Shown here piece after piece: positions 5,234-24,329 of a stretch of DNA of 24,329 nucleotides (within the stretch, counting starts at the first letter, position 1; every line of letters starts with the position of its first letter). Position numbers and translations under genes: made by a program. The notes beneath the pieces are model-generated. The model saw nothing but the letters and a program-made list of their open reading frames with translations, was not told the DNA's origin and did not search any database. The DNA is from a virus. The stretch is from IMG/VR virus record IMGVR_UViG_3300025141_009680, positions 1 through 24,329 of that record. One strand, given 5' to 3'.

Positions 5234-8200
5234 CTACACGATCTCAGAGATCGTGATCGTTCCGAGCCGATCTACGTCGGTCTTCTCTTCGTCGCCGAGG
5301 ATGTTCTGGCGAGAGTGATCAGACGTGATCCTCCCGTAGACGTAATGCCTCGGGTTGTTGGTCTGGTCGTCTGTAGACTCCGGCGCGATCCGGGCAAAGT
5401 AAACGACGGGAGAGACCGCCCCGCCCTGCCGTCGGAGCAGCCCATCCATCAGATAGATAGAATCCTTCACCGAGGCGATCCCGCCGCCGGCTGCACTGGC
5501 CGCTACATAGTCTGGAACCGGGTCGTCCTTGTTAATCTGTGTCGCGTCGACTCCGTCCGTCCACGAGAACTCGACCTCCCGCGCCGCAGGACCCATTCGG
5601 CTAGCTGCTGAAGATCCGTTGGGGAGCGTGAAGATCTCAGAGTTGGCCCGCGTCACGACCTGCCGCCCCCTCGCGTATTGTGTCCCGAAGATCGCGAGCG
5701 GGCCGATCAGGGCTTGGCCGATCTCAAAGTAACCGTCCGCAGTCGTCTGGGCTGGGATCCTCAGTCGGTAATAGCGGGCGGTCGGTGACTGGGAGTGGGC
5801 GATCCCCGCGGCGCTCGGCGCCCAGATCTCACAGTCTCCGCTCGTCGCCTCGGTGTCGTCGGCGCCCTCGAGGAAGATCGTCGGGTGCTTCGCGGCCTCC
5901 TCCGTCCACGCGCCCTCGGAGTTCTTCTCGATCTTCCTGTACTTCGTGTTCGTGGAGTCGACGAAGGTCCCGCCCTCCAACTCCTGATACATGATGTAGC
6001 GCCCCGCCTTGTGAGCCCCCCCTCCGGTCTCAGGATAGACGGTCTCCCCCTTCCGCTCGAACCTCAGAGAGGTGAAGCCCTCGGCGGCGTTGATCGTGCA
6101 AAGGGTCGTCCAGCCCGCCGCGTACTTCTCAAGGTATGCGGTCTTGAAGTTGATCCCCAGGAGGACAACCCCGAAGCTGTGGTTCTCGAGGTGACCATAG
6201 GCGAGCTCGGAGATGTCCCAAGCAATGATCTGCTCCGTCGCGTCCTTCGATCTCCACGCCGCCCGGGGGCTCTGAGCCACCGACGGGAAGACGTTCCTGA
6301 GGGGGTGAGAGTAGTCCGCGTCGATCTGCCACCTCTCCTTGTATCTCGTCGGGCCGGCGACCGCTGCGATCTTCACGTTGTCGAAGATCTCGGACGGCTG
6401 TGTACTGAAGCTCCGCGGGTGTAGATCTCCCGGGGTGCTCCACGAGTCCGCGAAGCCCGCGGAGGTCGGAGCCCATCGTCCCGGCCAGAAGCAGTAGCCC
6501 ACATAGCCCCATCGCGAGACGTCGCTCCCCGTCTTGTGATTTCCGAACGTCACCCGGGAGTTGTCGGCGTTTGCGCCCGCGTCGGACACGGCGCCCCCAG
6601 GACCCTCGGTCCACTCCCTGAATTGGTCGCGACGGGCATACCAGGTCTTGACGTTCCCTTTGTCCATCGCGATGCGGATATGTAACCGCTTTGTCATGTC
6701 CTCTGTGATCGCCGATCCGATCTGAGCCCCTGCCGTGATGTCCCGGAGCGCCCAGCCCGAGTCGGCTATGCAGACTGCGATCTCGTACTTGAAGCTGGAG
6801 GCATCAGAGATCCTGATCAGGAACCCGACATCTGTGTCCGTCAGCGATCCCGATCCCGCGTCGACCGAGACCCCTATCTCGGCGAATACGTCCTCCTGCT
6901 CGTTCCCGCTGCTGAACTCGCGAAAGAAGTACCGGGTGTTCGCTGTCGTGTCGATCTTCAGAACGCTACTCGCCAGATCGTCGGCCCCGGCGCCGCTCGC
7001 CGTCCACCCCACGCGCCGCGGATCCACGATCGGAAGATAGCCACCCCCGCCCGTGCTCGTGCTCGTGTTCTTGTTGAAGGCGACGTAGTCGGTGTCTTGG
7101 AAGTTCACCGTCCCGTGAGCCGCCGGCCCGGTGTGAGTCGAGAAGCCGCCAAGGTAGACGACGCCGAGAGACTGCGGATCTTCGTCTGAGCTGTCCGCCG
7201 TCCACCTACTGAGAACCACGACCTGGCCCGCGCTGGACGCCGCCGCGTAGGTGTCAAGCCTCGCCTCGGCAGTGTCGCCCGAGAAGTACGCCGCCTCGGA
7301 GAAGGTCGACCAAGTGTCGCCCCCGTCGTCGCTGCGGACGGGGTGGAGGTCATCGTCCGAGACATCTCGGCTCACCAGAGCGAACACTACGCCGCTATCG
7401 TCTCGCCACGAGGCGCACCCCGGCTTGGTGACGGAAACCATCCCGTTGTAGATGTCGACAGCGGTCGCCAAGAGAAGTCGGTCGTATGCCGATCCGATCC
7501 GCCGGCTCAAGTACTTGTTCGAGCCCGCCGCGGGGTCGGAGTGGTAGGTCATCAGGAAGGCTCCGTCAACCTCCACTAGATTGATCGCGAGCACCTCCTC
7601 GCTCCCATTCGTTACCCAGTCGTCCTCTACCTGGGTGAACCGCCCGCCGAGGTCATCGCTCGCATATTGGGCACAGTTCGACTTGGACGCGCCGTCCTCG
7701 AACTGGATCACCAAGAGCACCTCGCCCCCGCTATAGATCGCCCGCATCTGCCGGATGTCGTCGTTGCTGATCTTCGTATCAAGACAGCGGAACGAGTAGG
7801 GTTCCCAGTTCGCCCCGTCGTCGTCGGAGAAGTACACGTCGACCTGATCCCCCGAGGCGATGTACGCGAGAACGCGCCCGCTTGGAAGCTGGCAGAGGGC
7901 CGGTCCCTTCTGGGCTGTGGCGCTGTCCGGGGTCAGGGTTCCCGCCGTGCTCCACCCGCTGCCGGGCGTCGTCGTCGGATCGTAGATGCTGACGGTCTGG
8001 GCGAACGTGGTCTTGTGCTGGAGTCCGAGGGCTAGCAGCTTGCCCGACTGTAGTCGGATCACGTCGGGATAGGCCGACAGCTCGGAGGCGTCGTCAGACC
8101 AGAAGAGAGTTTCCCAGCCCGAGAGGAGTTGGGGTCCGTCCCATCCGTACTTGTCGGATTCCGCGGCTTCGTCTGACCAGAGATAGCCGGCCCGCTCGAG

Positions 8201-21294: not shown

Positions 21295-22650
21295 CTATCG
21301 GATGCGGATCTTCCTCTCGTCCTTGTGACGAGTGTCGAGGAACTCTCGGCAGATGTAGCGCGAGGCGTCGAGGATGTGGCTCAGGTCCTTGTTCGCCGCG
21401 TTGCCCCCTGGTCCCCGCCAGTGACGGAGGCCGGCTATCAGAGAGGCGCATCGAGGATGGACGGTCACCGACCCCCGGACCATCGCAGCGTGGAGGAGTC
21501 GGGAGGTGTAGGCGACCGAGCCCGGACCCTTGCGAGCCGGGAGGATCTTGAAGGGGGGCTCTGTCGGGGGCAGCCCGGAGACTGCGGCGATCTTCTGCTC
21601 GAGTAGGTGATTGACCCGGTAGCCCACCTCGGACTTGCCCGCGGAGTTCGTGTCTCCTCTCGCCAGGTCCACAGCCTCCGGCCCGACGTCCCACCGACCG
21701 AGCATGTCGAGGATCCCGTTCGCGTCGGCCTCGATCCCAGTCCGCCCGGGGCTCGTGTACTCGTCCAGGAACCAGACCTTGGGGTCGACCTTGTCACGCT
21801 TGAAGGCGACCAGGACCGCAGCCTCTCGGCCCGCGTCCTCTCCGTGGTCGACGCCGATCCCGATCTGGACCTCGTCGCCGGGTAGCTCTTCGCTGATCAT
21901 CGAGTCGACGAAGGCGGCGAAGTAGCGGTCTGGGCTGATCCCCTCCCAGGCGCCGAAGAACCTCTGGTGGAGCTCGGCGGGGAGGATCATCTTTCGGATC
22001 TCCTCCAGCTCCGCCGCGCTGAGCCCGGTGTTCTCTGTGGACGGCTGGACGTGGATATCCTCCGCCCTCCCGTCCTCGCACGCTTGCTTGAGCCAGCCAC
22101 AGGGGCGACCGACGGGGGTGAGGGTTAACCAGATCGAACCCTTGCGAACAATCACCCGAGACTGGGCCTCGGCGAAGATCCTCTCCTCCGGGGGCTCGTC
22201 CAGCCAGACGAAGTCCAGGGTCGACCCGGCAGCGGCGAGGACGCCCGCGGACTGCGAGACGATGCCCATCGAGTCGCCGCTCCTCAGTCGCAACATCCGA
22301 CGACGCCCGACCGTAAAGCCTCGGTCCGGGTGATAGCGGCAGTCGGGATGGAGCAGGCCAGGGGGGAGCAGCTCGTGCAGCTTGCTCTCGATCTCCTTGC
22401 TGCTGTCGTCGGAGTAGGGAACCAGGCGACCGGCTACGGGGCGATCGGGGATGGTCCGGTGAGGGTGGGTGTGAGTTAGCCAGTACAGAGCCTCGGCGCA
22501 TCCCGCGTAGCTCTTCCCGACGATCTGGTTAGGCCCCCGGAGGCATCTCGTCTGCGACTGGCTTCGGTGGAACCTCTCCTGTCCCGGCCTCGGCTGGTAG
22601 GTGGCGAGTGGGTTCGAGGTGATGGCGGCGAGGGCTGAGGCCAGGCTCAC
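21295..22650 (-). CDS. terL: terminase large subunit (TerL)
   Basis: A 451-residue packaging motor with ATPase and nuclease domains. In the ATPase, a Walker A-like RGPNQIVGKS is at residues 38-47, Walker B FVWLDEP is at 148-153 and the coupling motif LTLTP is at 175-179. In the RNase H-like nuclease, candidate metal ligands are Asp 268 in IGVDHG, Asp 328 or 333 in VDLARGD, and Asp 428 in SHILDASRYI. It cuts concatemeric DNA and pumps it through the portal. The GTG start follows the TerS stop directly (TAG then GTG). The loop has no Gly before the usual GK(S/T), an Asn-Gln-Ile-Val version seen in some terminases. Confidence 0.92.
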   Translation of the reverse strand: MSLASALAAITSNPLATYQPRPGQERFHRSQSQTRCLRGPNQIVGKSYAGCAEALYWLTHTHPHRTIPDRPVAGRLVPYSDDSSKEIESKLHELLPPGLLHPDCRYHPDRGFTVGRRRMLRLRSGDSMGIVSQSAGVLAAAGSTLDFVWLDEPPEERIFAEAQSRVIVRKGSIWLTLTPVGRPCGWLKQACEDGRAEDIHVQPSTENTGLSAAELEEIRKMILPAELHQRFFGAWEGISPDRYFAAFVDSMISEELPGDEVQIGIGVDHGEDAGREAAVLVAFKRDKVDPKVWFLDEYTSPGRTGIEADANGILDMLGRWDVGPEAVDLARGDTNSAGKSEVGYRVNHLLEQKIAAVSGLPPTEPPFKILPARKGPGSVAYTSRLLHAAMVRGSVTVHPRCASLIAGLRHWRGPGGNAANKDLSHILDASRYICREFLDTRHKDERKIRIR

Positions 22651-23097
22651 CTAGTGCCGTTGCCTTTGGCGGATAGCCTCGATCATCTCGGGGTCAAGCT
22701 CTGAGGCTAGACGGTCGAGCAGCTCGTCGCGGCTTAGGTTCGAGTGGTCCTCGGCGTCTGGGGCGTTCGCCATCTCGTCGCGAGCAGCTTGCACCAGCTT
22801 GTCGGCAGCCGTTCCCCAGGTCCGGTTCAGGTCCCGGAACTCCAGCCCCTTCCGTTGCTCCTCGTCCTCGAGCCGGGAGAGCATCTCCCCGTAGCTCAGA
22901 GTAGCGAGCTGGGCAGCCTGCTTTAGGATCGCATCCTTTGCGCGTTGTACTCCGGTAGAAAAGCTGGGATCAGTTTCCAGCCAGTAACGAACCGTCGTGT
23001 GTGCCCGGTCCGCCGCCCTGCCTGCGGCTCTCTGGCTGCCGCCGTCCGCTAGCACAGCTGCCGCCCTTTGCTTGGCGCTATGGGTCGTTCGTGGCAC
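22651..23097 (-). CDS. terS: terminase small subunit (TerS)
   Basis: A 148-residue protein directly before TerL. Residues about 18-41 (LADGGSQRAAGRAADRAHTTV then RYW) form a helix-turn-helix for recognising the packaging site. The middle is helical (QAAQLATLSYGEMLSRLEDE) for oligomer formation, and the C-terminal part is acidic then basic (RDELLDRLASELDPEMIEAI). A GTG start is preceded by GAGGGG. It would bind pac or cos and regulate TerL. Position and domain plan are convincing, although small terminases are poorly conserved. Confidence 0.8.
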   Translation of the reverse strand: MPRTTHSAKQRAAAVLADGGSQRAAGRAADRAHTTVRYWLETDPSFSTGVQRAKDAILKQAAQLATLSYGEMLSRLEDEEQRKGLEFRDLNRTWGTAADKLVQAARDEMANAPDAEDHSNLSRDELLDRLASELDPEMIEAIRQRQRH

Positions 23098-23106
23098 CCC
23101 CTCACC

Positions 23107-23733
23107 CTAGCCATTCTCCCTCCCCGCGTCGAGGATCGCTTTGGCCCGGGCCGACTCGGTGGGTGAAAGGGGAGGCAAGGGCTCGCCGCTCTCCCTCAGT
23201 GCCCGCAGCTCCGCGAGCGCGATCGTCGGCGAGGTCCTCTCGGACCTGGACACGAGCCAGACTGTCTCATCTCGGCTGACCTTCAGCGGACTGACCTTCA
23301 ACTCCCATCCTCTCCGCAGAAGTTCCTCGACGTTGTGGCGACCCTCGTAGATCTTCAGGGTTGCCCCCTGGTGCCGCCCTGCCGCGCAGGAGCACGGGAC
23401 CTGCGTCTCGTATCCTTGTGGGTCCGTCATCATAACGTGACCGTGCCGGCAGTACGAACAATAGGGATCGTAGGGGACCGCCGTCTCCGGCCTCGGCCTC
23501 CTCTTGTAGATCCTGATCACATCGTCCAGGTTCAGAGCCCCGAAGGCGCCCCGAGCTCGCCGCTCTGCGGCTTCCTCCCTGGCAGCGACGAACGACGACT
23601 CTAGGTGCTCGGGGACGATCGGGCCGAGTCGGTGGAGAAGGTCTGTCGACCACGCCTTGATCATCTCGTCAGCCGGCAGCCTTCCGTTGTTCAAGCCCAG
23701 CTGCCTCCTAATCACGTCTGCTATCTGTCTCAC
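23107..23733 (-). CDS. Cys-cluster protein, possible replication helicase loader
   Basis: A 208-residue protein. The GTG at 23733 is chosen because a near-perfect AGGAGGT site lies six bases upstream and the start overlaps the upstream stop (GTGA). Residues about 20-78 (ADEMIKAWSTDLLHRLGPIV, then LESSFVAAREEA and LDDVIRIYKR) resemble the small helical domain of SPP1 G39P-type helicase loaders. Residues 92-116 hold C-x2-C and C-x-C pairs with nearby His, a probable zinc ribbon. There is no Walker A, so it is not a DnaC-type ATPase. It follows the putative initiator, as lambda P follows O. The assignment is inference from weak similarity and context. Confidence 0.4.
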   Translation of the reverse strand: MRQIADVIRRQLGLNNGRLPADEMIKAWSTDLLHRLGPIVPEHLESSFVAAREEAAERRARGAFGALNLDDVIRIYKRRPRPETAVPYDPYCSYCRHGHVMMTDPQGYETQVPCSCAAGRHQGATLKIYEGRHNVEELLRRGWELKVSPLKVSRDETVWLVSRSERTSPTIALAELRALRESGEPLPPLSPTESARAKAILDAGRENG

Positions 23734-24329
23734 TGCGCTACCTCCTCTGCCGTCTCCGGCCCAAATATCCTGTCGAGCTGCTCCTCTGCCGTCTCGTCCC
23801 ATCCCCCGTTACTGCGGCGGAACCTCGGCGCGGGGAGATCTGGCTTGGCCCGACCGTCAGCATCGAACAGGGCGAGGAAGTATGCGGCAGGGTTCGCGGC
23901 CCCCGCGCTCTTCCCCAGTGCCGACAAGACCACGTCCTCACCCTGCCCGACAATCCCGATCCACCTCTCGACCTGCAAGGGGGGAACCAGCCCGCGGAGG
24001 CCGAGGCGATGGCGTAGATCGTCGACAGTCATCCCCGCGATCTCTCTCACCCCCTCGGGGGGGTAGGGGGGGTGTTCTTCTTTTATTCTTCTTTTACTCT
24101 TCTTTATAAGGGTGCACTCCTGCTCACTACCTATAGTGCGGTCCTGCTCACTATGTATAGTGCGGTCCTGCTCACTAGGGACCAGCCGCCCCCTAGTGCA
24201 CTCCTGCTCACTAACAGGGTGCGGTTTGCTAGTGCGGTCCTGCTCACTAGTGCGCGCCCACTCACTAGCGGGTGCGAGTTTGTAGGACGACGCCCCCTTT
24301 CCGGGTCCGCCTCGAGTCACTCGGACGAC
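23730..24329 (-). CDS. putative replication initiator with internal iteron array (5' end outside the window)
   Basis: The frame is open to the window edge, so the N-terminus may lie outside; a GTG at 24320 is the first possible start seen. Residues about 19-70 from that GTG are a polar linker of repeated SEQDRT or SEQECT units, encoded by DNA iterons. Residues 71-83 are basic (LIKKSKRRIKEEH), encoded by an AT-rich tract. The C-terminal part (about 92-192) has a compact helical domain with VDDLRHRLGLRG and NPAAYFLALFDAD, a pattern seen in phage and plasmid replication proteins. Lambda O has its origin in the same place, between DNA-binding and partner-binding domains. The link to the next gene (GTGA) also fits. 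The biochemical family is not recognised directly. Confidence 0.45.
   Translation of the reverse strand, partial: VVRVTRGGPGKGASSYKLAPASEWARTSEQDRTSKPHPVSEQECTRGRLVPSEQDRTIHSEQDRTIGSEQECTLIKKSKRRIKEEHPPYPPEGVREIAGMTVDDLRHRLGLRGLVPPLQVERWIGIVGQGEDVVLSALGKSAGAANPAAYFLALFDADGRAKPDLPAPRFRRSNGGWDETAEEQLDRIFGPETAEEVAQ
24075..24110. other. AT-rich tandem 11-mers, candidate DNA-unwinding element
   Basis: Two perfect copies of TTCTTCTTTTA (24075-24085 and 24086-24096) are followed by a shortened copy, CTCTTCTTTA (24097-24106), and TAAG. The 36-base tract has about 22% G+C inside a sequence of over 60% G+C. It is polypyrimidine on the plus strand and directly borders the iteron array. It is also coding on the minus strand (KKSKRRIKEE). 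Confidence 0.6.
24111..24267. repeat. six-copy iteron array, candidate replication origin
   Basis: Copies of a 20-bp unit with consensus TAGTGCGGTCCTGCTCACTA lie at 24111-24129 (19 bases, first base lost), 24134-24153, 24158-24177, 24194-24213, 24230-24249 and 24248-24267 (degenerate, sharing two bases with its neighbour). Three copies are identical. Two have AC in place of the central GG, and the last differs at five positions. Each unit has TAGTG and CACTA arms in inverted orientation. Start-to-start steps are about 24, 24, 36, 36 and 18 bases. Shorter partial matches occur near 24218-24231 and 24271-24283. Confidence 0.75.

Follow-up and report, generated by a model that had tools for sequence, protein, structure and literature searches.

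The right end of an uncultured tailed-phage contig (IMG/VR record; its 24,329 bases are referred to here as the window) carries an array of short dyad repeats inside an open reading frame that runs off the contig, which raises the question whether this phage starts its replication within its own initiator gene. In phage lambda, O dimers attach to iterons and open a 40-bp A+T stretch beside them (PMC5043065). The layout of the locus argues strongly for a lambda-type replication origin placed inside the phage's own O-type initiator gene. The N-terminal winged helix (wHTH) of the initiator would bind the 20-bp dyad sites, probably as a dimer; by stacking, the initiator copies would put strain on the neighbouring AT-rich A/G tract and melt it. 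Recruitment of the replicative helicase would fall to the C-terminal domain, probably together with the protein that the overlapping next gene encodes. That the initiator binds the sites, that the tract melts, that the helicase is loaded here and that the phage uses the site as an origin is what we infer from this anatomy. The design is clearly a known one, in a new example with a private iteron sequence; through it, a phage group without known host acquires a defined putative origin that is open to testing.

Gene order, relatives and the winged helix of the initiator

At the right end of the window a leftward operon begins (all genes on the minus strand), with the order initiator (23730-24329), a gene for a 208-residue protein (23107-23733), terminase small subunit (22651-23097; phrog_4044, 3e-5), terminase large subunit (21295-22650) and further genes. 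The initiator gene has its stop at 23730 and its start beyond 24329, the 5' end being lost at the contig end; as read, residues 1-20 correspond to the end of the wHTH wing and are followed by the site-bearing linker and the C-terminal domain. The GC skew of the contig fragment was uninformative. At the opposite end of the window, a DNA methyltransferase gene (109-1344) and a gene for a small HTH protein (1250-1552) lie on the plus strand, opposite to the structural genes.

Single-protein queries with the initiator and the next gene retrieved a single contig (L002), which was rejected: it matches the antisense strand of a chaperonin gene by chance. The large terminase subunit as query yielded 20 contigs, all from a single group of uncultured phages; four of these (L006, L009, L012 and L022; terminase 74-78% identical to that of the window) hold the whole initiator gene, to which the wing end and C-terminal domain of the window's protein align, and L035 holds a copy of the L009 gene. 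Neither the next gene nor the terminase had a match among 84,980 species genomes that would point to a host for the group.

A DNA-binding N-terminus had been predicted from the letters of the window; the corresponding part of its own gene lies beyond the contig, and in the four relatives the prediction was borne out by an O-family wHTH domain, with whose end in L006 and L012 the first residues of the window's initiator (TRGGPGKGASSYKLAP) align. All four relatives matched phrog_678 ("replication initiation O-like"). The family PF04492 (Phage_rep_O) was passed by L012 (35.6 versus a gathering score of 28.7), L006, L009 and L022 staying just below with 24-27 bits; the NCBIfam equivalog TIGR01610 (phage_O_Nterm) gave 31.8 bits for L012 (E 1.5e-7), under its cut-off of 45.5, i.e. 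the domain was recognised and the equivalog level unreached. The wHTH of L009 as query led to Paraburkholderia phage IPK (E 8e-3), and that of IPK to lambda O, P22 gene 18 and HK97 O (E about 1e-11 to 1e-14); related genes annotated as "replication protein O" were likewise found by the wHTH searches. According to the low-confidence structural model of the L009 initiator (mean 59.6), the linker (pLDDT 31-44) lies between the wHTH and a helical C-terminal domain.

The next gene occupies the position of P in lambda, its GTG start at 23733 overlapping the initiator stop by 4 bp, and it stands behind the initiator in all five relatives holding both genes. Its product possesses four invariant cysteines and helical ends, and had no sequence match in Pfam, PHROGs, NCBIfam or the PDB. 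The structural model (pLDDT 79, pTM 0.44) returned only generic helical fold matches, up to Z 7.6; a match to the DnaD-domain fold (2i5u, Z 5.4) was no better than background and was discarded. Its position suggested the designation as a candidate helicase loader, which is a guess.

The iteron array, the AT-rich tract and the inverted repeat

Six 20-bp iterons had been described in the sequence-only reading; the sites are real, the count is not, as the spacing resolves the array into eight slots, which follow each other in gene order at steps of 18, 18, 18, 18, 18, 24 and 24 bp (all coordinates on the minus strand). Sites 2 (24230-24249), 6 (24158-24177) and 7 (24134-24153) are exact copies of TAGTGAGCAGGACCGCACTA; site 4 (24194-24213, TAGTGAGCAGGAGTGCACTA) deviates by two mismatches, whereas site 1 (24248-24267, TAGTGAGTGGGCGCGCACTA) and site 8 (24110-24129, TAGTGAGCAGGAGTGCACCC, adjoining the AT-rich tract) deviate by four. 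The two slots that had been missed are site 5 (24176-24195, TAGGGGGCGGCTGGTCCCTA), of TAGGG type and with arms resembling the L012 sites, and the decayed slot 3 (24212-24231, TAGCAAACCGCACCCTGTTA), which is nearly identical to slot 3 of L012. The next best match to TAGTGAGCAGGACCGCACTA elsewhere in the window has six mismatches (best matches in shuffled windows, 5-7). The inverted TAGTG/CACTA ends were confirmed by five matches to the pattern TAGTGNG..CNCACTA versus 0.26 expected in the window, and the dyad pairing averages 5.8 of 10 pairs versus 2.5 expected (P 0.005). The exact iteron was absent from the viral contigs searched; a relaxed pattern had two matches there, which lacked repeats and were dismissed as chance, and a literature search on the AAAAGACAA motif brought up no phage-origin paper among the matches listed.

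Slot 3 (TAGCAAACCGCACCC; window 24212-24231, L012 4281-4300) is the best-conserved stretch between the window and L012 within otherwise diverged arrays, and could bind another factor.

The tandem AT-rich 11-mers reported next to the iterons were found at 24075-24105, repeating out of frame. They belong to the presumed unwinding element (24075-24110, minus strand), in which AAAGA recurs on the gene strand at 11-bp steps (TAAAAGAAGAA repeats); the duplex-stability calculation proposed for this region showed that no other 36-bp segment of the whole window has as low a stability (-1.07 kcal/mol per step, followed by -1.24). The window thus shows, beside its iterons, the combination of AT-richness, strand asymmetry and low stability that characterises a lambda-type origin. 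The equivalent tract is the stability minimum of the contig in L006 and L022, the third lowest in L009 and the fourth in L012. A further AT-rich stretch, just 5' of the large terminase gene, ranks among the least stable DNA of the L009 (4485-4559), L012 (6469-6547) and L017 (7890-7965) contigs; none is listed at this place for the window.

Beyond the AT-rich tract, a C/G inverted repeat (CACCCCCCCTACCCCCCCGAGGGGGTG) is positioned at 24048-24074 (minus strand); its statistics are weak taken singly (z -2.5; P 0.07 by codon permutation), and the whole-gene stem test gave no significance in the window. Such a repeat occurs at this position in most of the genes compared, each being weak alone. The window displays each anatomical feature of a lambda-type origin that was compared, apart from the inverted repeat, which is a candidate.

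An array of dyad sites could also be an operator or a centromere-like site, through which the wHTH protein regulates its own gene or partitions a plasmid-like prophage: MarR-type wHTH proteins recognise operators with dyad symmetry, and the fold matches of the initiator wHTH are MarR-like regulators. However, the array is situated in mid-gene, away from a promoter position, the AT minimum follows it at a fixed distance, and the wHTH is of the replication O family; we regard such a regulatory or partitioning role as quite improbable.

Selection on the DNA and joint transfer of domain and sites

Under the reading as a replication origin, the repeats would be kept as DNA; alternatively, they might have been selected as a repeated linker peptide (SEQDRT), the DNA having no role. 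Every spacing in the window is divisible by three and the peptide repeats are in frame, in line with the latter explanation. In contrast, the codons speak for the DNA: the invariance noted earlier for Ser-Glu-Gln is exact, each of the five SEQ copies being written AGT GAG CAG and the sixth sharing AGT GAG, and the serine codon of the TAGTG sites is the rare AGT in 6/6 cases, although AGT provides 4.2% of the serine codons in the other genes of the phage (copies born by duplication would not be independent in this count). When synonymous codons were permuted within the gene, the window's 102 repeated 8-mers compared with a mean of 32 and were reached in 0 of 300 trials; the clustering of AAAGA was equalled in one of 300. 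Moreover, dyad symmetry is meaningless for a peptide, the linker is predicted to be disordered, and the AT-rich repeats have a period of 11, as do those in the linker of the related contig L017, which are out of frame.

The relatives bear on the same point, since they keep the arrays while peptide and site sequence change: L006, L009, L012 and L022 all have at least five dyad sites in the linker, and the SEQDRT peptide is replaced by GEPQIT, STVGYTTP and SDLSVP. The earlier preference for selection on DNA over selection on peptide repeats was upheld. The sites read TAGTACAGTGGGCTGTACTA in L006 and L022, GGTGAGCCACAGATCACC in L009 and TAGGGACCTCAGCGTCCCTA in L012; the dyad excess is significant in every phage (P 0.0005-0.005), and the last two spacings are 24 and 24 bp in all four relatives. 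The synonymous positions of the sites are frozen relative to the wHTH (L006 versus L022: synonymous differences in 2 of 36 site codons versus 23 of 96 wHTH codons). Taken together, we consider a purely peptide-level role very unlikely. Recent functionless tandem expansion or an assembly product, to which repeat arrays are prone and for which the three identical copies in the window might speak, is extremely unlikely in view of the syntenic arrays in independent relatives, L012 having the same eight slots (five steps of 18 bp, then 24 and 24) with a different site sequence.

The initiator genes also revealed how the putative origin changes. Between L006 and L022, identity is 83-98% over the stretch from wHTH to last site and about 45-70% thereafter; the reverse applies to L022 and L009, with an identity of 0.42-0.70 over wHTH and sites and of 72-95% in the C-terminal half. 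From these opposite profiles it follows that wHTH and sites travel as one module, and the sequences place the apparent switch point at the AT-rich tract. The relatives thus constitute a natural domain-swap series, in which the wHTH is transferred along with its sites, separately from the C-terminal half and the next gene; with five initiator genes and four matched wHTH-site pairs, they offer material for reading how a wHTH specifies its site.

In L017, the N-terminus is exchanged for that of another initiator family (phrog_16167) on the same C-terminal domain; its linker contains five tandem 11-bp repeats (5523-5588, CAAGCATGAAC), out of frame and without an adjoining AT tract. The small terminase subunit appears swap-like as well: compared with the window (22651-23097), the genes of L009 (3576-4049), L021 (1554-2027), L022 (4103-4576) and L023 (1196-1669) encode a different N-terminal part and a nearly identical C-terminal tail (DHSNLSRDELLDRLASELDPEMVEAIRQRQRH), and a DNA methyltransferase gene is inserted before them.

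Comparison with known origins and a possible common spacing

The likeness to the lambda plan, first proposed from the window, extends to dyad iterons within the initiator gene, the AT minimum alongside, the O-family wHTH of the relatives and a spacing as in lambda, P22 and HK97. In lambda, as in P22 (gene 18) and HK97 (O), the origin is part of the initiator gene and falls between the segments for the wHTH and the C-terminal domain (PMC5043065, PMC7466680). Window and lambda share the order of dyad iterons and A/G-rich AT tract, and the window's candidate inverted repeat is placed like the palindrome of lambda and the C/G repeat of P22; the first AAAGA follows 14.5 bp past the centre of the last site in both, and the next gene overlaps by 4 bp, as P does O. 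The differences concern the site sequence (TAGTG..CACTA versus ATCCCTC..GAGGGA in lambda), the number of slots (eight versus four), the upstream steps (18 versus 20 bp) and the next gene, which differs from that of lambda and is directly followed by the terminase genes. In the Shiga-toxin phages P27 and 933W, the middle of O contains six iterons and an AT-rich tract (PMC7466680); their iterons are nearly those of lambda, whereas the window's are unrelated in sequence. For Francisella phage KIRK, a lambda-like origin is reported that comprises four iterons and an AT-rich region, the next gene being similar to G39P (PMC7924643); the C-terminal family of its initiator (Phg_2220_C) is different from that of the window phage.

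The last spacings are 24 and 23 bp in lambda, P22, HK97, a Yersinia phage and others, compared with 24 and 24 bp in the window, and the first gene-strand AAAGA of these phages lies 13-15 bp beyond the last centre (reference phages were picked by wHTH similarity only, and site centres were set by hand). The first AAAGA fell within a band of 12-15 bp in 17 of 20 genes versus 7.5 expected by codon permutation; the nominal P of 1e-7 overstates the significance, as there is relatedness among many of the phages and the peptide partly dictates the AAAGA codons. Under permutation the register itself arose with a frequency of 0.33 in the window and of 0.15-0.71 in the other matching genes, and can partly follow from conserved Lys-Asp/Glu codons. 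We tentatively raise the possibility that O-type origins, from enterobacterial phages to this clade, might share a fixed ruler: spacings of about 24 and 23-24 bp between the last iterons and gene-strand AAAAGA(CAA) repeats from 12.5-14.5 bp past the last centre, an element that the initiator or a partner may read single-stranded, as DnaA reads DnaA-trios, while the iterons drift freely. Such a common ruler is testable against lambda. In Pseudomonas phage D3, the sites within the O-type gene (L045, 1419-1495) have AGTGAG/CTCACT ends, which resemble the half-site TAGTGAG of the window.
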